From the IMG/VR virus record IMGVR_UViG_3300042306_001554, positions 1-20,901 of that record: a stretch of 20,901 nucleotides of DNA; one strand, written 5' to 3'. The notes beneath the pieces were generated by a model. It was not told the DNA's origin. It ran no database searches and was given only the letters and a program-made list of their open reading frames with translations. Both the position numbers and the translations under genes were made by a program. This DNA is from a virus. Shown piece by piece: positions 1-20,901 of the stretch; position 1 is the first letter of the stretch, and every line of letters begins with the position of its first letter.

Positions 1-363
1 AATTGATTTCATTTCAGCATAAATTAAACCCAAACTAATTATCTTGGTTGATAGATGTTGTATGGGTATTAAATATTTAACAAATTCATTTAGTAAAAAA
101 ACATCCAACATAAAAAACAACAATATCAGTGAGGTATACCCAATTAATTTTGGAACAAACCCTCGTACAAAAGCTCTTGAAGTCCATCTAATTTTAGCCC
201 CCTCTCTACGTTGTTTAATTATCCTACAATAAGCTGTAATGATATCAAGTAATACAAATCCTAGGATAACCAATAATATTCCAGCAGAAGGGGCAAAAAA
301 CGTCAAAATCGATAACCAAAATCCAAATAACCCCTCTTTGACAGTTTCAAATAAATGCTTCAT
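1..363 (-). CDS. Phage holin, partial (C-terminal end beyond window)
   Basis: An open frame on the minus strand runs from an ATG at 361-363 to the left edge (121 codons visible, no stop). The translation begins MKHLFETVKEGLFGFW and shows hydrophobic segments at about residues 15-43 and 73-92. Between them is LDIITAY followed by a basic stretch with GAKIRWTSRAF, and near the edge LGLIYAEMKSI. This matches the layout of small phage holins of the holin-4 type (an LDxxTG-like motif after the first helix, a K/R-rich loop, and an E-x-x-S-I motif near the end). Such proteins make holes in the inner membrane to release or activate endolysin. It lies downstream of a two-component operon on the same strand and has its own ATATTTAT box. 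The family call is from memory of the pattern; a non-holin membrane protein is the alternative. Confidence 0.72.
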   Translation of the reverse strand, partial: MKHLFETVKEGLFGFWLSILTFFAPSAGILLVILGFVLLDIITAYCRIIKQRREGAKIRWTSRAFVRGFVPKLIGYTSLILLFFMLDVFLLNEFVKYLIPIQHLSTKIISLGLIYAEMKSI

Positions 364-412
364 ATATATTTTTTCTTTTAAAAGTAAATAGTTTTTATTA
401 AATTTAACAATT

Positions 413-420
413 ATAAATAT
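413..420 (-). promoter_or_regulatory. ATATTTAT promoter-like box for the holin
   Basis: Minus-strand ATATTTAT lies 49 bases before the holin ATG, in the 81-base gap after the coiled-coil gene. It is one of seventeen such boxes found before gene or operon starts in this window. The long leader differs from the usual 4-20 bases, so the holin may be separately controlled. Confidence 0.5.
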
Positions 421-444
421 CTAAATTCGAATAAAAGTTGGTAT

Positions 445-1122
445 TTATCCCTCTTTGTCTTTACCAGAATACTTAACCCCCATTATTGTACCTATAATAC
501 TAAATGCGTTGGTTAAAAGAATACCTAACATATTTGACCAAGTAGACCCAATCATTTGAGTATCTTTATTTATTACTAATGCTAAAATATACATAAAAGT
601 GGTTATAACCCCAATCGAAATAATGACACCTAAAGCTATCTTTACAATATTACCAATTAGCTCTGTTTGTGTTTTCTTTTGTAATACATCTAAATCATTA
701 ATTGCCATTGTTTTAGCCTCCTCAGCCCCAATTCTAGCCAATTCTGACTTTGCCATTTCTTGTTGTAATTCCAAACTTATTCTCTCGTTATCTTGTTTCC
801 ATGCAATTAGTTCTCTATTCTGAACTTCAAAGGTAATTTTAGCATCTTCAACCTCTTTAAATGTTAATTGAAGTTCTGACATTATCCTTTGATTCTCAGC
901 ATTAACTTCAAGTAATTCTTTATTCTTTTCTTGAACTTGTTTTGTTATTTCTAACCTCTTTTTTCTTGTCTCTTTGTCTTTTTCTTTACAATTCTCAACA
1001 TATTTGGCAAAATCAGAATCATCTGAAGTGTCAATAATCTTCAAAATATTTCCCTCTAACCCAATATTTTTCTTTTCGAGTAAGTTTATTAACTCTTCCT
1101 TAGTTTCTTTATTTAATTTCAT
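445..1122 (-). CDS. Coiled-coil protein with two C-terminal membrane segments
   Basis: The protein has 225 residues. Residues about 47-150 are charged and helix-rich with heptad-like spacing, consistent with a long coiled coil. Residues about 155-184 and 195-216 are hydrophobic, giving two membrane helices, and the tail KDKEG is charged. With the N terminus in the cytoplasm, the tail would also be cytoplasmic. No enzyme motif is visible. The ATG overlaps the stop of the response regulator by one base (TAATG), which argues for translational coupling and a shared role. It sits between the regulator and the holin, so a membrane effector, antiholin-like protein or signalling adaptor are possible roles, but this is inference only. 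I do not recognise the family. Confidence 0.8.
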   Translation of the reverse strand: MKLNKETKEELINLLEKKNIGLEGNILKIIDTSDDSDFAKYVENCKEKDKETRKKRLEITKQVQEKNKELLEVNAENQRIMSELQLTFKEVEDAKITFEVQNRELIAWKQDNERISLELQQEMAKSELARIGAEEAKTMAINDLDVLQKKTQTELIGNIVKIALGVIISIGVITTFMYILALVINKDTQMIGSTWSNMLGILLTNAFSIIGTIMGVKYSGKDKEG

Positions 1123-1556
1123 TATCTATATACCTTGAATGGAGCAGTTCTCGTTTTATATCCTTCATAATCTTTTTTAAATTCTTCTAACCTAGGTTCA
1201 ATGTCATCAGATTTTATAATCCAAAATTGAGCTCCAGCTTGAACAGCTTTCGCTTGTTCTTCAGGTTCATTAGAAGAAGATATAATCCCTATAACCACAT
1301 TATTTCCATACTCAAAGTTAATTTTTCTAATCAATTCTATACCATCAAAGGAAGAACCAATTATATTTAAATCAACGAATACACACTCAGGTCTATCTGA
1401 AAAATCACCTTGTAACCATTTTTGAAATAGTTTTGCGGCTTCATCAGAACTATTTAACGATTTAAGTGAAAGACTAATGTCCAATAAAGAACATGCGTCT
1501 TCAAATACTAAATGGAACAAGTCCTCATCATCTACCAACATTAACGTATCAATCAT
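1122..1556 (-). CDS. Single-domain response regulator (receiver only)
   Basis: The protein has 144 residues and is a CheY-like receiver domain with no output domain. Expected residues are visible: the acidic pair D9-D10 in LMLVDDED, the phosphoacceptor D62 in CVFVDLNI, a Ser at 93-94 in GIISSSN (usual Thr/Ser position), and K115 in FWIIKSDD. The usual Pro after this Lys is Ser here. The receiver fills almost the entire protein, so it must act through a partner protein rather than by binding DNA. It starts 12 bases after the kinase stop and overlaps the coiled-coil gene, so kinase, regulator and membrane protein form one unit. The natural reading is that the 707-residue kinase upstream phosphorylates D62. 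Confidence 0.9.
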   Translation of the reverse strand: MIDTLMLVDDEDLFHLVFEDACSLLDISLSLKSLNSSDEAAKLFQKWLQGDFSDRPECVFVDLNIIGSSFDGIELIRKINFEYGNNVVIGIISSSNEPEEQAKAVQAGAQFWIIKSDDIEPRLEEFKKDYEGYKTRTAPFKVYR

Positions 1557-1568
1557 TTTAATTTTTTT

Positions 1569-3692
1569 TTATTTTAAGTTTATTTTCATTTTAGTACCAA
1601 TTTCATTTTTTTCACAAGTAATTTCAAATCCGTGTTCTTCTAAAATTGCAACACAAATATTTAAACCTAACCCTGTACCACTCTCTTTTTGTCCTTCTTT
1701 TCTAGTGTAAGGTTTTGATAAATGTTCAAAGTCTTGTTGAGTAATACCTCTACCATTATCTTGTATTATTAAAATATCACCCTCCATAAAAATCTTAACA
1801 AATTTTGTGTCAGAGTCGTTATATTTCAAACCATTTCGTATAAGATTATCAATAGATGTACAAAACAATGACTCGTTCACATCTTTAGTTATTAGTTCAT
1901 CGATATGAACCTGACTTTTGTATGAAGTTGTTGATAAGTAACTATCTAAAATACTTTTTAAATTACATTCTGTTTTATTTAATACAACATCTTTTTTAAC
2001 TAAGTTTGTGAATTCATAAACACCTCTATAAACTTTTTGTGCGTGAGCCAATCCATCTTTAATCATTTTAAATGGTGCGGATATTTTTAAATCCTCTATT
2101 TGTTCAAGTGTTAATCTTCGTTCTAAAGAACTAACACCTCTAGGTATGTATGTATTAATACCTGAGTGCATATCGTGTCTGAGAATCTTAGCTGCGTGTT
2201 CTAAATAGGTGTTCTTTTTCTCAATCTCAATAGATTGTGTGATTCTATCAGTTATATCTGTTGCAATTTTCATTACTCTTTGTACTTTACCATCAACCCC
2301 AAATACTGGATTATATGACGCTTGAATCCAAACTTGTTTTTTATCTTTAGTAAACCTTAAAAACTCATCAGTAACATAAACACCACTTCTCAACAATTTC
2401 CAAAATTCTTTATATTCGGGAGATTTTGAATATTCCTTTGAAACAAAAATTTTATGATGTTTACCTTTTAATTCTTTTTCAGAATATCCCATTTTTTCAC
2501 AAAATAAATTATTGGCAAACATAATTTTACCATCCAAATCGAATTCAATAACCATATTGGATGTATTAATTGCAGTCATTCTATTTCTAATCTCAATTTC
2601 TTTTTGCTTAACCTCCGTTACATCATATCTGATTGACATATAACCTAAAAATTTACCATTTTCATCAAAATCCCCCTTTATGTAAGAATCAACCCAATAT
2701 AATTCACCATTTTTTGTTTTATTCGTAACAACTTCATTCCAAATTTTCTTCTCATTAACAACTTCTCTGTACATATTAGTCCAAAAATCCTTTGGGTGTC
2801 TTCCAGAATTCACTATACTATGGTCTTTACCTTTTACCTCATCTAAACTCCATCCTGACACTTCCTGAAACTTTTTATTTACATAAGTTATTCTACCTTT
2901 GTTATCTGCTTTAGATACTAAAACCGAGGTATCAACAAACTTCTCAAATTCTTGTAAGTTATCTTTTAGGATATTACTTTCCTTAACTGAATATGCGAAT
3001 GAATAAAGTGAAGATAACATTTGTGCAAAATTAACTTCCAAATCAATCCAATTCCTTAAGGTTTCACTCTCAATACACACAACACCAATAACATCCCCTT
3101 TATACATAATTGGGACATCTAACATAGATTTAATACCAAGTGGTTTTAAGTAACCTTCAGTGAAACATGAGGTTGCAATATGGGTTTCCGCGTCATTAGC
3201 AATTATTATTGGTTCAATTTCCAATTGTTCAAAATAGAGGTTAAAATCCTTTTTGAACATTTCAGACCCACCATACCATTCGTTCTCCTTTTGTATATAT
3301 AATTGTTGACAGATAATTGAAGTTTTATCAGAATTATACAACCAAATAGAACATCTATCAGCATTAATTGATTCTGTCACTTCTTTTGTTAATGTTTTTG
3401 CCCCTTCTTTAATATTACCTTGGTAAAATAATGGATTATGCGATTGTGAAATGAGAACTTTATTAAGATTCTTTGAATATTTTGTTAAAAAAATATTATG
3501 TTTTAGTTTTTTGGTATATTCCTTAACCAAAATTAAAAAGAATGGTAAAAAAGTAATAAAACAAGAAAATTCAAATATGTTTATCAGTTGACTATTTCTT
3601 ATCAAGAAAAATGTTGAGATTGTCTTCAAAAGAAGAAAGGTAGTCATTATTAAAACTGAAAAGTAAAGTGTAAATCTGAATTTCTGTGTCAT
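1569..3692 (-). CDS. Membrane sensor histidine kinase (GAF-PAS-PAS-kinase)
   Basis: The protein has 707 residues. Hydrophobic helices lie at about 9-31 and 38-57 with only a few residues between them, so the periplasmic loop is very short. A GAF-like domain follows (about 80-237, with GIKSMLDVPI and GVVCIES), then PAS domains at about 245-365 and 368-485, each ending with a typical D-V/I-T tail. The catalytic part has an H-box with H506 in ILRHDMH, an N-box with N616 and N620 in DNLIRNGLKYN, a G1 box DNGRG at 645 and a G2 box GTGLGL at 672. All residues needed for activity appear present. The sensor parts are cytoplasmic, so the signal is probably internal or from the membrane. It heads the operon with the response regulator and is divergent from the endolysin. 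Complete histidine kinases are rare in phages. Confidence 0.92.
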   Translation of the reverse strand: MTQKFRFTLYFSVLIMTTFLLLKTISTFFLIRNSQLINIFEFSCFITFLPFFLILVKEYTKKLKHNIFLTKYSKNLNKVLISQSHNPLFYQGNIKEGAKTLTKEVTESINADRCSIWLYNSDKTSIICQQLYIQKENEWYGGSEMFKKDFNLYFEQLEIEPIIIANDAETHIATSCFTEGYLKPLGIKSMLDVPIMYKGDVIGVVCIESETLRNWIDLEVNFAQMLSSLYSFAYSVKESNILKDNLQEFEKFVDTSVLVSKADNKGRITYVNKKFQEVSGWSLDEVKGKDHSIVNSGRHPKDFWTNMYREVVNEKKIWNEVVTNKTKNGELYWVDSYIKGDFDENGKFLGYMSIRYDVTEVKQKEIEIRNRMTAINTSNMVIEFDLDGKIMFANNLFCEKMGYSEKELKGKHHKIFVSKEYSKSPEYKEFWKLLRSGVYVTDEFLRFTKDKKQVWIQASYNPVFGVDGKVQRVMKIATDITDRITQSIEIEKKNTYLEHAAKILRHDMHSGINTYIPRGVSSLERRLTLEQIEDLKISAPFKMIKDGLAHAQKVYRGVYEFTNLVKKDVVLNKTECNLKSILDSYLSTTSYKSQVHIDELITKDVNESLFCTSIDNLIRNGLKYNDSDTKFVKIFMEGDILIIQDNGRGITQQDFEHLSKPYTRKEGQKESGTGLGLNICVAILEEHGFEITCEKNEIGTKMKINLK

Positions 3693-3712
3693 TTTTTAAA
3701 ATTTTTTCATTA

Positions 3713-3720
3713 ATAAATAT
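3713..3720 (-). promoter_or_regulatory. ATATTTAT box for the kinase operon
   Basis: The minus-strand sequence TCTATATTTATTA lies 20 bases before the kinase ATG. It is the only box before the kinase, regulator and coiled-coil genes, which fits a single transcript. Confidence 0.55.
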
Positions 3721-3740
3721 AGAACATAACACATTATATA

Positions 3741-3748
3741 ATATTTAT
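3741..3748 (+). promoter_or_regulatory. ATATTTAT box for the endolysin
   Basis: Plus-strand ATATTTATAA lies 19 bases before the endolysin ATG. It is only 20 bases from the opposing box of the kinase operon, so the lysis enzyme and the signalling operon are divergently expressed from one short region. Confidence 0.55.
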
Positions 3749-3767
3749 AAAAAAAAACTATAAAACT

Positions 3768-4571
3768 ATGTTAAAAATTGGATCACAAGGAGCTTTAGTA
3801 AAACTCCTACAAGAAAAATTAGGTGTTACTGCAGATGGTGCTTTCGGACCTGGTACTGAAAAAGCACTCAAAGAATGGCAAACTAAAAATGGTTTAGTTG
3901 CTGATGGCGTTGCAGGTCAAATAACTTTGGGTAAAATGGGAGTATCTCTTCCAAAAGTCGAAAAAGAGACATTAAAATTAGAAAAACTAAAAGGTCAAAT
4001 ACCTGATGCTGTAATTTCTGAAATCGCAATGATTGCTGATAAGTTTGGAATCATCACTAATTTGAGATTATGTCACTTTTTGGCACAATGTTCAACAGAA
4101 TCAGGTAATTTCAAAGCTGTTTCTGAAAATCTTAATTATTCTAAAGATGGATTGTTAAAAATATTTCCAAAATATTTTCCAGGTGTACTAGCTGAGTCAT
4201 ATGCCCACCAACCTGAGAAAATCGCTTCTCGTGTTTATGGTAGTAGATTAGGAAATGGTGATGAAACAACTAAAGAAGGATGGAAATTCCGTGGTCGTGG
4301 TTATATCCAATTAACTGGAAAACAAAACTATCAAGTTTTCTCTGGTTTTATTGGTGAAGATTGTGTTGCTAACCCTGATTTGGTTGCTACAAAATATCCT
4401 CTAGGTTCTGCCGCGTTCTTCTTTAATAACACAAGCCTTTGGAATGTATGTGATGAAGGTGCGTCTGAAGAAGTTGTAACAAAAGTAAGTAAAAGAGTGA
4501 ATGGTGGTTATAATGGTTTAGACCACAGAAAACACGAATTTAAAAGATTTGAAAAACTATTGTTAGTTTAA
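3768..4571 (+). CDS. Endolysin: peptidoglycan-binding domain plus GH19 hydrolase
   Basis: The protein has 267 residues. Residues 1-57 form a PG_binding_1 domain (GSQGALVKLLQEKLGV, then DGAFGPGTEKALKEWQ), which binds peptidoglycan. Residues about 75-265 form a glycoside hydrolase family 19 (chitinase-like) domain that cleaves glycan strands. E111 in CSTESGNF is the likely acid catalyst, and the family signature FRGRGYIQLTG is at 174-184. RVNGGYNGLDHR near the end also matches family members in phage lysins. No signal peptide is visible, so release through the holin encoded 3.4 kb away is expected. It stands alone between an ATATTTAT box and a strong terminator. It has no N-terminal tag, unlike the two other wall hydrolases at 9330 and 11088, which fits a cytoplasmic lysis role. 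Confidence 0.93.
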   Translation: MLKIGSQGALVKLLQEKLGVTADGAFGPGTEKALKEWQTKNGLVADGVAGQITLGKMGVSLPKVEKETLKLEKLKGQIPDAVISEIAMIADKFGIITNLRLCHFLAQCSTESGNFKAVSENLNYSKDGLLKIFPKYFPGVLAESYAHQPEKIASRVYGSRLGNGDETTKEGWKFRGRGYIQLTGKQNYQVFSGFIGEDCVANPDLVATKYPLGSAAFFFNNTSLWNVCDEGASEEVVTKVSKRVNGGYNGLDHRKHEFKRFEKLLLV

Positions 4572-4575
4572 AAAT

Positions 4576-4603
4576 AAAACCCCACCTTTTTAGTTGGGGT
4601 TTT
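4576..4603. terminator. Bidirectional terminator between endolysin and phosphoesterase
   Basis: The stem AAAACCCCA/TGGGGTTTT with a 10-base loop is followed by a T run on the plus strand and has an A-rich left arm, so it can stop transcription from both converging genes. Confidence 0.85.
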
Positions 4604-4608
4604 TTTTA

Positions 4609-5328
4609 TTATAAGAATACAAGTTCATTGGTTTCTTGATTCCAATCCACAATTAATGGTTTATTACTATAAGCGTATTGTTCATTAAGAACTGATGCGT
4701 TTATGTAATGAGTGTCACCATCAAAAGTATATCCATAACCAGTATGAATGTGACCACAAACGTGAATCTTTGGTTTAATTTCTTTGATTCTATCAGCCAA
4801 TAGTTCACAACCAAGATGGTCAGTTCTACCAATTACTTTATCTAAGTAACCGTAAGCTGGTCCGTGAGTGATAAGGATGTCAGTATCAGTTGGGATATTA
4901 TCCCATCTACGTTTCAGTTCCTCACCTTTTCTTGGTAGATTAAATGCCCAATCAAAGAATTCTGGTTGCCAAGGACTACCATATATCTTCACAGGTTTTT
5001 CATCCCCAATTTGGACTTCTACTGAACTATCTCTTAGGTATTCAAAGTTCTTATAGGTATTTAATATTTCTTCGGTACGTCTAGGTATTAGAACACTCCC
5101 ATGAACAAAGAATGGTTCTCTATCTATGAAACCCCAATCGTGATTACCAGCAATGAATACTTTGAAATCGTAATCCAATCCATCAAACCATTGACAGAAA
5201 TCTTGTATCTCGTGATTATAACCCATTGAAGACATATCCCCAGCATGAATTAAAAGATTACCTCCAGGTAAATCCTTCTCGATTAATTTATGTTTGCTAT
5301 GGGTGTCAGATATAAAAGTAATTCTCAT
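4609..5328 (-). CDS. Calcineurin-like metallophosphoesterase
   Basis: The protein has 239 residues and shows all five metallophosphoesterase motifs: D8-x-H10 (SDTHS), GD at 30-31 (HAGDMS), GNHD at 61-64, the His of THGPAYG, and GHIH near the end. These bind two metal ions and hydrolyse phosphate esters; the substrate cannot be told. The pattern SPWQPEFFDWAF and the general layout resemble the stand-alone MPPED-like group. The start was set at the ATG at 5326-5328 because the motif DTH must lie close to the N terminus. A 16-residue upstream extension in the same frame lacks similarity and overlaps the promoter. It is untagged and has a host-type promoter, so it may be expressed early. Confidence 0.92.
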   Translation of the reverse strand: MRITFISDTHSKHKLIEKDLPGGNLLIHAGDMSSMGYNHEIQDFCQWFDGLDYDFKVFIAGNHDWGFIDREPFFVHGSVLIPRRTEEILNTYKNFEYLRDSSVEVQIGDEKPVKIYGSPWQPEFFDWAFNLPRKGEELKRRWDNIPTDTDILITHGPAYGYLDKVIGRTDHLGCELLADRIKEIKPKIHVCGHIHTGYGYTFDGDTHYINASVLNEQYAYSNKPLIVDWNQETNELVFL

Positions 5329-5381: not shown

Positions 5382-6320
5382 ATGAAAAAAATAATTAGAC
5401 TAACTGAAAATGATTTAATAAAATTAGTTAAACGAGTCATTAAAGAACAAACCCAAAATATTAGAAAAGAAAATCGTTTATTGATAGGAGATTTTGAAAC
5501 ACCTACTTGGGTAGGTAAAGTAGTTTGGAAAGACTTAAGAGTAAGAATTGACAAAAGGTTAGGTAAACCAAACGTACAAAGAGGTCAAGGATTTAATATA
5601 CCTGAACTACCAAATGGAGTTAATGTTTTAATTTCATCTCAACAAATTACAAGTTCACTTACAAATTATCTAAATACTATATTAGGATTATCTTTAAGTC
5701 AAATGAAAGGTAAATTAAAGTATTCAAAAGGTGGAGCTGATTTTAATTCAATTAACACCCAATACATAAATTCAGTTCTTTCACCATTACTTGATGGATT
5801 AGGAGTACCACCAGAACCAACACAAAATGATATTGATAGATTTTTACAAAGAAGGTTACCTGAAATCATATCTCAAAATCCAGGTTCATTACTTGAATTA
5901 TTAAATAAACACAAAATAAATGTATCTAAATTTACACAAAATATTGAAAAACAAGGTGTGACAGGTTTTGATATGGGAACATCTTCATATAAAAATCTTA
6001 AAATGTCTGATGTCGCATTTAATGACACATTAAGTTTAATTTTAGAAATATCTATTGAAAATAGGGGGGCTACAAGTGAAAATGATTTTAAAACCATACT
6101 TAATAATGTTTACACTTCATATTCCCAATATATTGAAAACACATGGCGTGGAGACAGTAATGTGATTAATATACCATCTTTGGAAGGCTTGTTAGAAGTT
6201 GACCCAAGATTAGCATCTAAAATTAATGAAAATGGTGGAGTAAAAAATTTAAATCTTTCTATACCTAAAATAGTAGTTAAAATAGAAACAATCAATCCTG
6301 GAAAATTTAATATTGTATAA
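5382..6320 (+). CDS. Tagged protein of unknown function (class A tag)
   Basis: The protein has 312 residues. The first 23 or so form a basic amphipathic tag (RLTENDLIKLVKRVIKE, then Q) that is almost the same as those at 18968, 19878 and 20457. The tag ends with I-K-E, which fits the I/L-x-E cleavage site of T4-type prohead proteases; this link is inference. The remaining sequence begins TQNIRKENRLLIGDFETP and has no catalytic motif, signal peptide or membrane helix that I can identify. I do not recognise a family. It stands alone, with an ATATTTAT box before it and a perfect hairpin terminator after it. A virion-internal or structural protein is possible. Confidence 0.85.
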   Translation: MKKIIRLTENDLIKLVKRVIKEQTQNIRKENRLLIGDFETPTWVGKVVWKDLRVRIDKRLGKPNVQRGQGFNIPELPNGVNVLISSQQITSSLTNYLNTILGLSLSQMKGKLKYSKGGADFNSINTQYINSVLSPLLDGLGVPPEPTQNDIDRFLQRRLPEIISQNPGSLLELLNKHKINVSKFTQNIEKQGVTGFDMGTSSYKNLKMSDVAFNDTLSLILEISIENRGATSENDFKTILNNVYTSYSQYIENTWRGDSNVINIPSLEGLLEVDPRLASKINENGGVKNLNLSIPKIVVKIETINPGKFNIV

Positions 6321-9314: not shown

Positions 9315-9329
9315 AAAGAAATTCATTTG

Positions 9330-10643
9330 ATGAAACGATTAATTATATCCGAATCAGAAAAAAATCATATTAAATCTCTATATAATATTAATGAAATTGA
9401 TACTGAAAAAGTTGTATCAAGTTTATTTACAAATGCTAAAAAAATAGCAAAAGATTTAGAATCAGGTTCAAGTTCAACAAGTTCAACAAGTTCAACAAGT
9501 TCAAGTGATACGAGCACCTCATCAGCTGGGGGGTCTTCAAGTGAATCAGGTCAAAGTGGTAGTGTTGCTGCTGGTGAATTTTTTAAACATCCTAATGCTG
9601 ATAGTATAACTTTAAAATCATACCCAACAGCAGTACCACTTAATGTTAATGCTGAAAAACTTTTAAAAAGTATATTCGCTGAAGCAGGTACACCTAATTT
9701 AACATATACAAGTACACTTAGAACTTATGAAGACCAAGCAAGAGCAAATTCACAAAACAGAAGGGTTGATATATTAAATTGGTATGGTAATGAGGTTGCC
9801 CAAGCTTGGGATAAACTAAAAGCAAATCAAATGACACAGCAACAATTTGCTGATTTTTTAAGAGAGAGAGATAAACGCACTGGAAAACTTATGAGTAACC
9901 ACTTATCTGGTTTTGCAATTGATATTACACCATATAATGAACAATTTGCTTCCACAGCTGAAAGATTAATGAAACAAGGTAACTCAGGGATTAGAAAAGT
10001 TCTAAGAGAAAAAGGAAATAATGCAGTACACATTGAGTTTAATTTTAGTGTTACTGATAAAAGTGGTATTTCATCACCAGGTAGTAGTTCAAAACAAGGT
10101 GAAAAAAAATCTGATAAAGCAATTTCTAAACAAGGAATTATTATTGATAAGAATGTTGATTCTTCTGATTATGCTATTGTTTTTGGTGGGTCACCTAGTA
10201 ATACATATGGTGCTCAGTTTATGTACCAACAAGGTAGTAATTACTTGAAAAATAAAAATGTTGTTTATAGTAATTTTGAGAATTCATTGGATAATGTTAT
10301 AAATTATATTAAATCAACTGACCCTAATGTTAAAATTAGTTCTGTAAGTGGTTTTTCAGCTGGGGGTAAAAATGCTTGGGCTGCGGCAAAACAAGGATAT
10401 AAAGCAGGACTTATAGACCCTGTAGTTACTCCAGATACTATATCTTTATTAGGGAATGATTTAAGTGGTTCTTTACCTCAGAATATTAAAATGGTATCAA
10501 GACAAGAGAATTGGAGTGGACAACATAGAAAACATGGTGATAGTTTAAGTAAAATTGAAAAAACTCAACCAGATATAAGAAGAAATGTTAATCACGCACA
10601 AATGCCAGCACAATTCTTTTCAGAATTTGCATCATTTGTTTAA
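9330..10643 (+). CDS. Tagged two-domain hydrolase: M15-type peptidase fused to an alpha/beta hydrolase
   Basis: The protein has 437 residues from the ATG at 9330; an in-frame TTG at 9327 is a weaker start. Residues 1-45 are a class B tag plus helical module (MKRLIISESEKNHIKSLYNI, then NEID) shared with the gene at 11088. Residues 46-80 are a Ser/Thr/Gly-rich linker. Residues about 85-240 look like an M15 (VanY/D-Ala-D-Ala carboxypeptidase-type) zinc domain: H191 and D198 in SNHLSGFAIDI and H234 in NAVHIEF are the zinc ligands. Residues about 268-437 look like an alpha/beta hydrolase, with nucleophile S343 in GFSAG, a candidate acid D363 and H422 in NHAQMP. The pairing suggests cutting of wall cross-links plus an ester or amide bond. 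I know of no named family with this fusion. Confidence 0.82.
   Translation: MKRLIISESEKNHIKSLYNINEIDTEKVVSSLFTNAKKIAKDLESGSSSTSSTSSTSSSDTSTSSAGGSSSESGQSGSVAAGEFFKHPNADSITLKSYPTAVPLNVNAEKLLKSIFAEAGTPNLTYTSTLRTYEDQARANSQNRRVDILNWYGNEVAQAWDKLKANQMTQQQFADFLRERDKRTGKLMSNHLSGFAIDITPYNEQFASTAERLMKQGNSGIRKVLREKGNNAVHIEFNFSVTDKSGISSPGSSSKQGEKKSDKAISKQGIIIDKNVDSSDYAIVFGGSPSNTYGAQFMYQQGSNYLKNKNVVYSNFENSLDNVINYIKSTDPNVKISSVSGFSAGGKNAWAAAKQGYKAGLIDPVVTPDTISLLGNDLSGSLPQNIKMVSRQENWSGQHRKHGDSLSKIEKTQPDIRRNVNHAQMPAQFFSEFASFV
9471..9506 (+). repeat. 9-base tandem repeat coding the Ser/Thr linker
   Basis: AGTTCAACA is repeated three times exactly (9471-9497) and followed by a diverged copy. It encodes SST units in the linker between the tag and the peptidase domain. 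Such repeats can change copy number by slippage and so change linker length. Confidence 0.85.
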
Positions 10644-11087: not shown

Positions 11088-11936
11088 ATGAATAAAAAGT
11101 TAATCATTACTGAAGAAGAAAAGAAACAAATTAAATCTTTATATAGACTAAATGAAATTGATGCTGAAAGTATTGTAAATAGTTTATTTAAATCAGCACA
11201 AGATATTGCTAAACAAGCTGAACAAGGTAAACTAAGTGATAATTCAGATAATACTGAAGATTCCAATAGTGAGAATACAACAGATTATTCATCCTCTACA
11301 GATAGTGGTAGTGGTACTTCTTCAGATTTTATTGAGATAACCAAAAAAGTCATACAAAAATTTGAAGGTGGTTATTGGAATCCTGAATGTGCAAAATACC
11401 CAGGTACTAAGCATCCAAGAAAAGAGGGTGCTTATAGTAGGTCAGGTGAAACTATGTTTGGTATTGATAGAGAAGCGGGAGATATTGAAAAGGCCGTACC
11501 AACTGAAGGGAAACAATTTTTTGGTATAATTGACCAAGAAAAACAAAGAATGGGAATGGAAAACTTTTGTAAAAAATGGAAGTGGAATTATGGTGGTGGT
11601 GAATTAAGAGAAAATTTATTAGACTTGGCTGCAAGGATAATGAAAAATTTATATGATAAAAATGCAAACGCGTTTTTCAAAGGTGATACAAAGAAAGTTG
11701 TTGAAAGTAGTAGACCATTAATGTTACATTTTTCATATGGAAGTTGGAATGGACCTGGTTTCTTTAAACATTTTGCAGAAAGAATTAATCAAGGTGTAAA
11801 AGATGGTTTACCTATTCGTAAACTTGTGAAAATAGCTAAAGAAGACCGTACAAAAAGATTTGCAGGTACTTTTTGGGCTAAAGGAACAGAAAAAGTAAAT
11901 GCGGCAATTGATGATGAAGCAGGATATAGTGCTTAG
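11088..11936 (+). CDS. Tagged muramidase-like lysozyme (GH108-like)
   Basis: The protein has 282 residues. Residues 1-47 are a class B tag and helical module (KKLIITEEEKKQIKSLYRL, then NEID) closely similar to that at 9330, including SLF and IAK further on. Residues 48-80 are an acidic Ser/Asp/Asn linker. The remaining 200 residues contain FEGGYWNP (E93) and SGETMFGIDREAG, which resemble the catalytic Glu and the GxTxxGI signature of GH108-type N-acetylmuramidases. Further on is SYGSWNGPGFFKHF. I call it a glycan-cleaving lysozyme with moderate confidence. It pairs with the hydrolase at 9330: same tag, same layout, different catalytic domain. The tag suggests a place in the virion rather than the lysis role of the GH19 enzyme. 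Confidence 0.72.
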   Translation: MNKKLIITEEEKKQIKSLYRLNEIDAESIVNSLFKSAQDIAKQAEQGKLSDNSDNTEDSNSENTTDYSSSTDSGSGTSSDFIEITKKVIQKFEGGYWNPECAKYPGTKHPRKEGAYSRSGETMFGIDREAGDIEKAVPTEGKQFFGIIDQEKQRMGMENFCKKWKWNYGGGELRENLLDLAARIMKNLYDKNANAFFKGDTKKVVESSRPLMLHFSYGSWNGPGFFKHFAERINQGVKDGLPIRKLVKIAKEDRTKRFAGTFWAKGTEKVNAAIDDEAGYSA

Positions 11937-12585: not shown

Positions 12586-13077
12586 ATGGAATTTATCAAG
12601 AAATATGAATTTTATATCAAATTCTTTGTGATTATATTATCAATTATACAACCTTTTATTCTTTTGTCAATATGTGGTGAATTATGGTCAATATCAAGTT
12701 ATTGGAAAACACCATTACAACCACTTTTCATTTTAGTAAACGCAGTCACAAGTTATTTCTTTTTCAGTACTGACAAATGGTTAATACCTTCAATTTTTTT
12801 ATTACTCCTAACTGCGTTTTCAATAGAACTTTATCCCATTACTCATAACATTTTCGCGGGACTTTTTTTTCTCTCATGTTCTTATCCCTTATTAACACTT
12901 AAACGATTCCGATTATTTACGGTTTTTTATCTAATGTCTATTCTTGTTCTATTATCATCAGGTATGTTGTGGTTTGAAATTTATTGTGTTTTAATACTAG
13001 GGTCATACCATCTGACAATCTTATTATATAAACATTACTTGGATAAATTAAGAGAACATAATCATTACAAATTATAG
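12586..13077 (+). CDS. Multi-pass membrane protein, unknown function
   Basis: The protein has 163 residues, very hydrophobic, with about five membrane helices (near 10-31, 44-60, 64-82, 84-104 and 109-142). The C-terminal tail is basic (HYLDKLREHNHYKL), suggesting it is in the cytoplasm. Its ATG is 16 bases from that of the divergent gene at 12569, and its last 13 bases overlap the end of the convergent glucosaminidase gene. Use of Cys and Trp in the helices is higher than in neighbours, which may hint at a host origin. No family is recognised and no clear promoter was found. Confidence 0.72.
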   Translation: MEFIKKYEFYIKFFVIILSIIQPFILLSICGELWSISSYWKTPLQPLFILVNAVTSYFFFSTDKWLIPSIFLLLLTAFSIELYPITHNIFAGLFFLSCSYPLLTLKRFRLFTVFYLMSILVLLSSGMLWFEIYCVLILGSYHLTILLYKHYLDKLREHNHYKL

Positions 13078-13676
13078 GTTCTTTCCTCCATTCTTAACTT
13101 GTAATTATCGACATACTCATCATATCTCCATAACTCATAATATTCGATTACAGAACCAATGTGAGCCCAATACCCCACACCTCCGTAACCTTTACAATTG
13201 TTTACCCAAAATTTCCAATCCTTACCTACAGCATTTGGATAAAATCTGTGTAAAAAATCAGCATGGTCAGAAAATGAATGTTCAAAATTATCGTATTTTC
13301 TCCATTTAATACCACCTGGTGATTCCCAATAATCTCCATTATATAAAGTTTCATAATACTTCATACCAAAAAGATTATTTGTTTTCAAAGCAAGCTCTGA
13401 TTTCCCACCACCACTTTCAACTATTGCTTGTGCCAATTGGATACTTGTAGGAATACCACATTCAATATGGTATAATATCGCAACTTCTTGATACTCCTTA
13501 CAAAAATTGGTGAAAGGGTGGTTGTTTTTGATGTTCACATTTACTGAGAAACTAATAGCGGTAACATCTCTGTGAACTAAATTTTCATCTTCCGAAGAAA
13601 CTGAAATGTTTTGTGATTTATTTAAATTTGTAAATACTAATATAAACCACAAAATGATTACAATTACTTTTTTCAT
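13065..13676 (-). CDS. Secreted glucosaminidase (GH73/FlgJ-like)
   Basis: The protein has 203 residues from the ATG at 13674-13676, which begins a signal peptide (MKKVIVIILWFILVFTNLN). The frame upstream adds nine residues that would spoil it. The catalytic domain has the GH73 signature: IPTSIQLAQAIVESGGGKSE with the catalytic Glu in IVES, then ALKTNNLFGMKYY, and WRKYDNFEHSFSDHADFL. It cleaves the glycan backbone of peptidoglycan at N-acetylglucosamine. Export by its own signal peptide means it acts in the periplasm without a holin. It is the fourth wall hydrolase in the window and untagged. It has an ATATTTAT box 48 bases upstream, so it looks to be under phage control. Confidence 0.88.
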   Translation of the reverse strand: MKKVIVIILWFILVFTNLNKSQNISVSSEDENLVHRDVTAISFSVNVNIKNNHPFTNFCKEYQEVAILYHIECGIPTSIQLAQAIVESGGGKSELALKTNNLFGMKYYETLYNGDYWESPGGIKWRKYDNFEHSFSDHADFLHRFYPNAVGKDWKFWVNNCKGYGGVGYWAHIGSVIEYYELWRYDEYVDNYKLRMEERTYNL

Positions 13677-13724
13677 TTTGTTTTTTGTTTTGTAAAACCA
13701 CAATTCGTTTTACCCCATTACATA

Positions 13725-18967: not shown

Positions 18968-19753
18968 TTATTTTTTATACTTTATTAATTCAGGATAATC
19001 ATTTAATAAGTCTTTATCAAATTTAATAAAATTAACATCATTATAATTGTCATCAATAATTTTAACAATGTCTTTATCAGTTCCCTTATATATCGCAAAT
19101 ATTCTTGATGATGTCTCACCATCAATATAAAAACTATAAAAATCTGGGTCTTTAATTAGTTTTGTCCAAATTCTTTGAGACTCCGCACTGACATTGGAGG
19201 TTGAACTACCCCATCCCAAATATTTTATGAATTCTTGATATATCAAATAACCCAATCCAGTCCCCATTAAAATTGATGGCAAGCCACCAATAAAATGTAT
19301 CCTATTTCTAGGTTCACCCTCAGTTTCAATCACAACACCCCAATCATTCAATATCTCATCAACATTCTTCATTATCCCCCTATTTGTTTTTTTCATTGCG
19401 GGAATCTCCAAACCATAATGCTCATTCCCATACAAACCACCATTTTCAAAATTAACCCTAGATGGAAAATGCTTAATCCCAAAATTTGGGGGAAATTTAA
19501 CATCATACAAATTTTTACCTTTAGTTATAAACTTCAATCCATACGGATTACTACGAGTAATCGGTTCATCCTTGAATACATTACCATAATCCTTAACAAA
19601 AGTGTCATCCAAATGCTTTTTCCTATAATAGTCGGTATTAGGTTTCTCCAAATATGTTCCCTCAATGTCAATCTCATCTATTTCACCCTCATTAATAACC
19701 CTCTTAATCAATTTAACCAATTCACCCTCAGTTAATCTTATAATTCTTTTCAT
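18968..19753 (-). CDS. Tagged protein (class A tag), unknown function
   Basis: The protein has 261 residues. The N terminus has the class A tag (RLTEGELVKLIKRVINE, then G), ending in I-N-E-G, a good fit to a T4-type cleavage site. The segment RIHFIGGLPSILMGTGLGYL at about 149-168 and the following YQEFIKYLGWGSS are striking, with the Gly pattern and helix of a GNAT-like loop, but other acetyltransferase motifs are not clear. The C-terminal part is charged and ends DYPELIKYKK. No signal or clear membrane segment is seen. The function is unknown; a GNAT relative is one possibility at low confidence. Confidence 0.8.
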   Translation of the reverse strand: MKRIIRLTEGELVKLIKRVINEGEIDEIDIEGTYLEKPNTDYYRKKHLDDTFVKDYGNVFKDEPITRSNPYGLKFITKGKNLYDVKFPPNFGIKHFPSRVNFENGGLYGNEHYGLEIPAMKKTNRGIMKNVDEILNDWGVVIETEGEPRNRIHFIGGLPSILMGTGLGYLIYQEFIKYLGWGSSTSNVSAESQRIWTKLIKDPDFYSFYIDGETSSRIFAIYKGTDKDIVKIIDDNYNDVNFIKFDKDLLNDYPELIKYKK

Positions 19754-19877: not shown

Positions 19878-20366
19878 TTAAATAGAACCCATTTCATCAT
19901 CAGACCTTTCACGTTCTTTATCATGAATACCACCAGTCTTAAAATCCCAAAATGCTGAATCCTTTAATAAATATGAAACTAAAGCAGTAACAGCCAATCC
20001 TAAAGCAGCACCACCTCCAACAAACATAGCGGTAGGTGCAATACCTAACATAGATAAAACACCAGCCTTTTTTATTATTTTATTAATAATATCTCTGAGT
20101 TTATATTCCTTTTCACTCATTTCTTTTTCCTCACTTAATTCACCATCTTCATCAGCGCTCATAACATATTCAACTTCATTTTTAAATTCTTTCTTACCCA
20201 AATTTTGGTATTCTTTTTTCAAGAATTCAATTTCACTTGGTTTTAAAATATCTTTGAGTACCTCAACTACCTTCTCTTTTTTTGAATCAGTTTCATTACT
20301 TTCTTTTATAACTCTTTTCACCAATTTAATTAAATCAGATTCAGTTAATCTTACTATTCTTTTCAT
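19878..20366 (-). CDS. Tagged protein (class A tag) with a hydrophobic Gly/Ala segment
   Basis: The protein has 162 residues. The class A tag reads RLTESDLIKLVKRVIKE, then S. A charged helical part (about 24-100) follows, with an acidic patch (SADEDGELSEEKEMSE). Residues about 101-134 are a long hydrophobic Gly/Ala-rich segment (AGVLSMLGIAPTAMFVGGGA, then ALGLAVTALVSYLL) suited to a membrane helix or hairpin. The tail is charged (KERERSDDEMGSI). The mix of a possible delivery tag and a membrane-active segment would fit a protein that enters the host membrane, but nothing proves it. No family is recognised. Confidence 0.8.
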   Translation of the reverse strand: MKRIVRLTESDLIKLVKRVIKESNETDSKKEKVVEVLKDILKPSEIEFLKKEYQNLGKKEFKNEVEYVMSADEDGELSEEKEMSEKEYKLRDIINKIIKKAGVLSMLGIAPTAMFVGGGAALGLAVTALVSYLLKDSAFWDFKTGGIHDKERERSDDEMGSI

Positions 20367-20456: not shown

Positions 20457-20901
20457 TTAATAATAAAGTATTAAATCTATAGGTTCACCCATAATGTTTT
20501 TCTTTTTAAATACATCTCTAATATTTTGGCCTTGTTTTTCTAATTTAATTTTTGACGTATTAATTGCATCGTTTAAACTACCAACAGATAAATCAATTTC
20601 AAATCCAAAATCATTTTCCCCAGGATTATAACCCATAATCATAGCTTGATGATATCTATTACGTATCTTATAAAATACTCCAGACATATCAAGTGCGGTT
20701 AAAAACTCATCAATATCTTTTGGTAATTTTTTAGTATCAACATTAATCATAATATATTTATTATCCATATTTAACGTTCCATCAGGTTGTAAATTTTTAA
20801 AAAATATTTCAGAAAATTCTTTAGGAACTCCCACAAAATTTTTGAACCCTGATGCGCTTTCATTTATTACCCTTTTTACCAATTTAACCAAATCAGATTC
20901 A
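20457..20901 (-). CDS. Tagged protein (class A tag), start beyond window
   Basis: The frame stays open to the right edge. At the edge the translation reads ESDLVKLVKRVINESASG, the second half of a class A tag, so the true ATG lies a few codons outside the window; a TTG at 20891 is not the start. The tag ends in I-N-E-S. The rest (about 130 residues) is mixed alpha/beta, with YIMINVDTKKLPKDIDEFLT and DFGFEIDLSVGSLNDAI, and has no motif I recognise. It shares tag and terminator style with the genes at 19878 and 18968. Confidence 0.78.
   Translation of the reverse strand, partial: ESDLVKLVKRVINESASGFKNFVGVPKEFSEIFFKNLQPDGTLNMDNKYIMINVDTKKLPKDIDEFLTALDMSGVFYKIRNRYHQAMIMGYNPGENDFGFEIDLSVGSLNDAINTSKIKLEKQGQNIRDVFKKKNIMGEPIDLILYY

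Follow-up and report, generated by a model that had tools for sequence, protein, structure and literature searches.

A phage-encoded histidine kinase, receiver and hairpin membrane protein beside lysis genes: a probable signalling switch for lysis timing

The stretch of DNA analysed here, referred to as the window, is a 20.9-kb virus record from IMG/VR (IMGVR_UViG_3300042306_001554) in which a two-component signalling system is encoded next to lysis genes. Four genes follow one another on the minus strand: a membrane sensor histidine kinase (HK; 1569..3692, 707 aa), a receiver-only response regulator (RR; 1122..1556, 144 aa), a membrane protein with a coiled coil and a hairpin of two transmembrane (TM) helices (CC; 445..1122, 225 aa) and a PF05105 holin (1..363), the 3′ end of which lies beyond the window edge. 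A GH19 endolysin (3768..4571, plus strand, 267 aa) is divergent from HK across a shared intergenic region (3693..3767) of exactly 75 bases, the length given in a preliminary description of this DNA. Pfam, PHROG and motif comparisons confirmed that all five genes are real and correctly placed. The same description had treated HK, RR and CC as one overlapping unit. This holds for RR and CC, which share 1 base (TAATG), but HK and RR are separated by 12 bases, and the holin starts 81 bases past CC and is therefore outside the overlapping unit. The window gave no match in Rfam or tRNA scans.

The kinase comprises a GAF domain (residues 98–231), two PAS domains, a DHp domain and a HATPase_c domain, with the GAF, PAS and HATPase domains scoring above the Pfam cut-offs (PF02518 at 53.3 bits against 26.4 for the HATPase). 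The phospho-accepting histidine is His506 in the motif RHDMHSG, and the N, G1 and G2 boxes are located at 615, 645 and 670, as expected of a sensor kinase; the H box was kept in 137 of 138 unique kinases. Two TM segments (7–32 and 35–57) leave almost no periplasmic loop between them, so that the sensing parts would be cytoplasmic or in the membrane. RR has the residues of a receiver (D9, D10, phospho-Asp62 and K115), which are invariant, as is an SSS stretch, and its phospho-Asp motif FVDLN was kept in all 103 unique RRs. PF00072, above its cut-off, was the sole Pfam match of RR at E 0.1, making it a single-domain regulator without a DNA-binding domain. The earlier reading of a complete kinase and a receiver-only regulator with an intact phospho-Asp was thus borne out. 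RR shares 72–89 % of its residues with 15 relatives from phages and 64 % with a bacterial one; its identity was mostly 83–98 % where that of CC was 54–65 %.

Among the relatives the kinase core was constant while the sensor part differed, consisting of GAF+PAS+PAS, of PAS only or of no sensor domain at all, the last in a 277-aa kinase (L199). About 30 of the fetched loci had a second kinase, in the order HK1, secreted coiled-coil protein, HK2, RR and CC (L058, L060, L064). HK2 has a signal peptide, a periplasmic coil and the same H box as HK1, and together with the secreted coiled-coil protein encoded between the two kinases (L064:6019-7979, also L060, L074 and L058) it may add an envelope input. 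A YceI-family gene stands beside HK in some lineages (L199:5827-6363; L261:4030-4554, between HK and RR; L306:2811-3335, the last judged by eye only). YceI proteins bind isoprenoid lipids, and the recurrence of this gene may hint at the signal that is sensed. At L121:6600-7592, and also in L124, a lysis-linked operon has a patatin-like phospholipase gene placed between HK and RR.

CC consists of an N-terminal input domain (about residues 1–62), a cytoplasmic coiled coil and the C-terminal hairpin (TM1 153–186, TM2 195–218). The AlphaFold2 model has a small N-terminal cap, a single helix from 36 to 184 that runs into TM1, and TM2 at 189–219. Conservation over 120 unique CCs was 94 % for TM2, 64 % for the N-domain and 57 % for the coil. 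TM2 being the most conserved part, the hairpin would be more than an anchor; this near-invariant helix carries the polar residues N197, T204, N205, S208 and T212. Each of the 23 large records searched had one copy of the hairpin gene. With no confident match in Pfam or PHROG, CC is by its sequence an undescribed protein family.

Searches of IMG/VR viral contigs gave at least 590 relatives of RR, the best 80 of which are 83–100 % identical, and at least 461 relatives of CC, both counts including near-duplicates from different samples. The order HK, RR, CC was kept wherever the locus was long enough, apart from occasional inserted genes. CC directly followed RR in 267 of 267 RR-bearing loci (duplicate contigs included), the two genes overlapped by 1 or 4 bases in 106 of 116 unique pairs, and RR was in single copy with an adjoining CC in 21 of the 23 large records. 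No direct fusion of RR to CC or of HK to RR was found among the relatives. A comparison with 50,697 deposited phage records gave no match to RR or CC, and the module is therefore known from metagenomes only, with no cultured model phage; HK gave partial PAS or kinase matches only, in ten of these records.

The carriers are large freshwater and marine phages, with hosts that are probably Bacteroidota. Ribosomal protein S21 was present in 8 of the 23 large records, and frequent neighbours of the module are genes for DnaK, YceI, a metallophosphoesterase and tRNA-synthetase-like proteins. The carriage of S21 and DnaK has been described for jumbo phages of freshwater Bacteroidetes (PMC9723584, PMC12619734). 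In L003, a class II tRNA-synthetase-like catalytic domain (L003:6070-6903, 277 aa) and a full DnaK (L003:7209-9077) are near the module, and both recur in many relatives.

To a large extent, the likely direction of signalling can be read from natural domain swaps, which were found by searching with the TM hairpin alone. In four relatives the hairpin and coil bear a kinase-type sensor in place of the CC N-domain, this being GAF in L188, L195 and L216 and PAS in L358. The L188 fusion is 51 % identical to the window HK over residues 71–296 and 53 % identical to CC over residues 59–223; for the L358 fusion, identity is 44 % between its PAS region and an HK PAS and 60 % between its hairpin and CC. 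Among the 23 large records, RR was absent only from G405 and G406, both of which have a GAF-hairpin instead of a hairpin with the RR-type N-domain. RR was likewise not found in the L216 and L358 records, nor was a kinase core in L188, L195 and L216 (controls L029 and L204 being positive), though these records may be incomplete.

The converse swap was found in a contig of a Bacteroidota metagenome-assembled genome (L154:5744-9050), in which HK and RR are followed by a CC N-domain joined to HisKA-HATPase. This N-domain is 36 % identical to that of the window, and its contig neighbours are cellular (CreD, a T9SS sorting domain). The third protein of L154 thus apparently holds an undescribed receiver-to-kinase input domain. 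L154 was the sole match when 84,980 species genomes were scanned with two short peptide patterns, and the sole convincing match (as G001) when the N-domain was searched in 396 genomes at the level of the phylum Bacteroidota and 198 at the family level. Other bacterial matches to the N-domain (E 4e-5 to 1e-3) were set aside, as they mainly cover the coiled-coil part.

Because the sensor-hairpin fusions and the L154 kinase fusion exchange different ends of the protein, the CC N-domain would be a portable receiver-input module and the hairpin a portable output. The swaps provide strong indirect evidence, at the level of sequence, that information runs from the sensor through RR to the CC hairpin. 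RR persists only in combination with an output that has a receiver-input domain, and serving CC seems to be its sole purpose. The preliminary description had argued that a regulator without a DNA-binding domain must act through contact with a protein and had named the coiled-coil membrane protein as candidate target. The invariable adjacency of the two genes and the absence of RR from the records in which the hairpin has its own sensor both support this proposal.

The association with lysis genes was evaluated from the position of the endolysin. A strong GH19 endolysin match is in single copy in 17 large records, and in 14 of these it was located no more than 5 kb from the hairpin gene. When CCs were clustered at 85 % identity, the endolysin was in the locus for 33 of the 41 clusters with full context. 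Over all clusters with an endolysin, it was divergent upstream in 16, upstream on the same strand in 7, no more than 25 bases downstream in 9 and 0.5–1.3 kb downstream in 7. This closeness, kept through repeated re-arrangement, is better evidence for a lysis link than synteny alone. An exception is L109, in which the GH19 endolysin is 10 kb away but an M15 endolysin stands beside the module. In L147, a degenerate-looking GH19 relative (1306-2301) accompanies a full GH19 endolysin (3895-4698).

Two relatives illustrate the link in their gene order. L358 has the PAS-hairpin gene followed after 24 bases by the endolysin, after a further 2 bases by a PF05105 holin and then by two overlapping spanin-like coil genes, the products of which had no good match to any spanin family. 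The run stands after GroES/GroEL, and this locus (L358:108-5984) also has a 2-TM protein ahead of the PAS-hairpin; its order resembles the GroEL-endolysin-holin order of Flavobacterium phage immuto (NC_055915). In L064, the two-kinase module is followed by a 2-TM protein, the endolysin and spanin-like genes. The L358 operon, together with endolysin proximity in the large records, upholds the earlier proposal that the module is tied to lysis genes.

The part given to the adjacent holin did not hold. The window holin gene encodes a small hydrophobic protein with TM segments and scored 25.4 bits to PF05105 against a cut-off of 22.2 although truncated at the window edge, and its relative in L003 (165 aa) scored 31.7 bits. 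PF05105 genes after CC were limited to the window, L002–L004 and near relatives (L095, L289, L376, L377) and, independently, L358, and no significant similarity was detected between the holins of the window clade and of L358. Thus, of the kinase-regulator-coiled-coil-holin order sought in relatives, the first three genes recur in hundreds of contigs but the holin is not a conserved neighbour. By gene order, the conserved partner and putative output of the relay is the hairpin protein CC, not the holin. A TM protein and a lipoprotein-like gene before HK in L271 and L291 were considered as a holin and spanin and rejected, the TM protein matching only phrog_38283, of unknown function.

Evident from these comparisons are an intact kinase and receiver, strict gene coupling, sensor-on-hairpin swaps and linkage to the endolysin. 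The likeliest function of HK-RR-CC, and one we consider probable, is that of a signalling switch, encoded by the phage, that sets the timing of lysis. A signal from the cytoplasm, membrane or envelope would be read by the membrane kinase, or by the two kinases of some relatives, by means of GAF/PAS domains or the periplasmic coil, and the small receiver RR would be phosphorylated. RR would then dock on the N-terminal domain of CC rather than bind DNA, and the long cytoplasmic coiled coil would relay its state to the two-helix membrane hairpin. The hairpin is predicted to act on the membrane lysis machinery, most likely by restraining a holin or releasing it, and thereby controlling access of the adjacent endolysin to the wall; both the direction of this control (delay or trigger) and a contact between hairpin and holin are steps that we infer. 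CC would either regulate holins of various families or itself be a signal-gated holin.

Several observations weigh against a lysis switch. The AlphaFold2 model of CC has a pLDDT of 84.6 but a low pTM of 0.33, Foldseek gave no match to it in PDB at E <= 0.001, and Pfam and PHROG gave only weak unrelated matches for CC and none to a holin or antiholin family. The Poisson-binomial chance of the observed endolysin closeness under random placement, 6e-14, is uncorrected for relatedness. A PF05105 match anywhere was present in only 1 of the 23 large records. The distance to the endolysin was 26 kb in L060 and about 91 kb for the fusion in L195, and no endolysin was found in the L125 record. The preliminary description had named relatives with the module far from lysis genes as evidence against its proposal, and a minority of this kind exists, 8 of the 41 full-context clusters having no GH19 endolysin in the fetched locus. 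These clusters would also fit a module that serves another late envelope task, such as superinfection exclusion, sensing of envelope damage or organizing the membrane for assembly, with closeness to the endolysin reflecting only a shared late region; the frequency of the DnaK, YceI, metallophosphoesterase and tRNA-synthetase-like genes as neighbours is consistent with this as well. The endolysin link nonetheless holds in four arrangements and in the fusions L188, L216 and L358 despite their differing neighbourhoods, and we regard a different envelope task as rather unlikely.

A related question is whether CC is itself the holin, or a second one, its hairpin oligomerizing and opening holes when the coil is switched by RR or by a fused sensor. 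Its two TM helices and cytoplasmic N-terminus are as in class II holins, the almost invariant TM2 has polar residues, in nine clusters the gene immediately precedes the endolysin, which is the usual place of a holin, and 22 of the 23 large records have no PF05105 match elsewhere. Set against this are the additional PF05105 holin that follows in the window and in L358, the other small 2-TM proteins near the endolysin in many of these phages, the long conserved N-domain and coil, which are atypical of holins, and the absence of a family match for CC; we consider this identity unlikely. More doubtful still is a reading in which the main effect of the phage kinase and receiver is to rewire the two-component pathways of the host, and CC serves as a membrane tether or a sink for phosphate. 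RR is unusually conserved relative to CC, as if meeting a conserved partner, and a homologous bacterial module exists in L154. Only a single bacterial genome was found to have such a module, however, and the absence of RR from the records in which the hairpin bears its own sensor suggests that RR is not needed apart from CC. Phages carry stray host genes, and a chance neighbourhood or a moron recently taken from a host might be proposed on that general ground; the recurrence of the same order, overlaps and catalytic residues in hundreds of loci from many samples already refutes it, and its probability is negligible. The lysis-timing switch remains the favoured reading, in which a phosphorelay may gate lysis.

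A close comparison is T4 lysis inhibition, in which the antiholins RI and RIII act on the holin T (PMC11413866, PMC8385771). There, too, the holin is delayed or released in response to a sensor input, the regulator works by protein contact and one of the antiholins is cytoplasmic, but the T4 antiholin itself senses superinfection and no kinase, receiver or phosphorelay is involved. CC matched no antiholin family in Pfam or PHROG, and no solved structure resembled its model significantly. Co-encoded phage membrane proteins likewise set lysis timing in the TeaA/ArrA lysis inhibition of ICP1 (PMC7182436), where TeaA is a GTA_holin_3TM protein and there is no two-component system. Control of a membrane signalling protein through binding of a single-domain receiver is known from Caulobacter DivK-DivL (PMC5361649, PMC4211667). 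DivL is a repurposed kinase, akin to the third protein of L154 with its receiver-input domain on a kinase; unlike the proposed relay, the output of DivK-DivL is the kinase CckA rather than a membrane hairpin and the setting is cellular development rather than phage lysis. In Yersinia entomophaga (PMC10101115), a two-component-type regulator similarly governs a holin/endolysin lysis cassette, but that system is bacterial and its regulator is described as PhoB-like, whereas the window RR has no DNA-binding domain. Receiver-fold proteins also occur in large phages as the cREC domains of jumbo phages (PMC7824862); their association is with NAD/ADP-ribose enzymes, and histidine kinases are said never to accompany them, whereas RR occurs with a kinase and keeps the phospho-Asp.

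Kinases and receivers as ordinary parts, antiholins as lysis regulators and single-domain receivers that act by contact, as in DivK-DivL, were therefore known already. In a partial coverage of the literature that included huge-phage papers, we found no description of a phage lysis cassette with a kinase-receiver pair. What lacks precedent in the literature searched is the combination of such a pair with a dedicated, unnamed family of membrane effectors in phage lysis neighbourhoods, together with natural sensor-effector fusions. We lean, by a modest degree, towards a new class of lysis control: a phosphorelay, sometimes with two kinases, that has a dedicated lysis-cassette hairpin protein as its sole output and interchangeable parts, and that is dropped in sensor-hairpin fusions. 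Such control would be widespread among large phages of freshwater and marine habitats that probably infect Bacteroidota. Phage yield is fixed by the time of lysis, and the known environmental input in T4 and ICP1 passes via antiholins. If the proposal is true, phages use cell-type signal transduction with replaceable sensors to choose when to kill, and the natural fusions make the lysis-control claim testable.

For the remaining wall-active content of the window, the endolysin combines PG_binding_1 with a chitinase-type muramidase domain (Glyco_hydro_19, PF00182) and matched the endolysin family phrog_181 at E 1e-61. A glucosaminidase (PF01832) at 13065-13703, a weak M15-like peptidase at 9327-10643 and, at 11088-11936, an unmatched 282-aa protein that has an N-terminal motif similar to the one described next are further wall-active or virion-carried candidates. 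Many otherwise unrelated proteins have a common N-terminal motif of 15–25 residues (M..IIRLTESDLIKLVKRVIxE or MKITRRQLRKLI.E), at window positions 5382-6320, 18968-19753, 19878-20366, 20457-20900 and others, and also in L006, L052, L125 and L306. This motif may be a targeting or packaging peptide that is cleaved off proteins carried in the virion.

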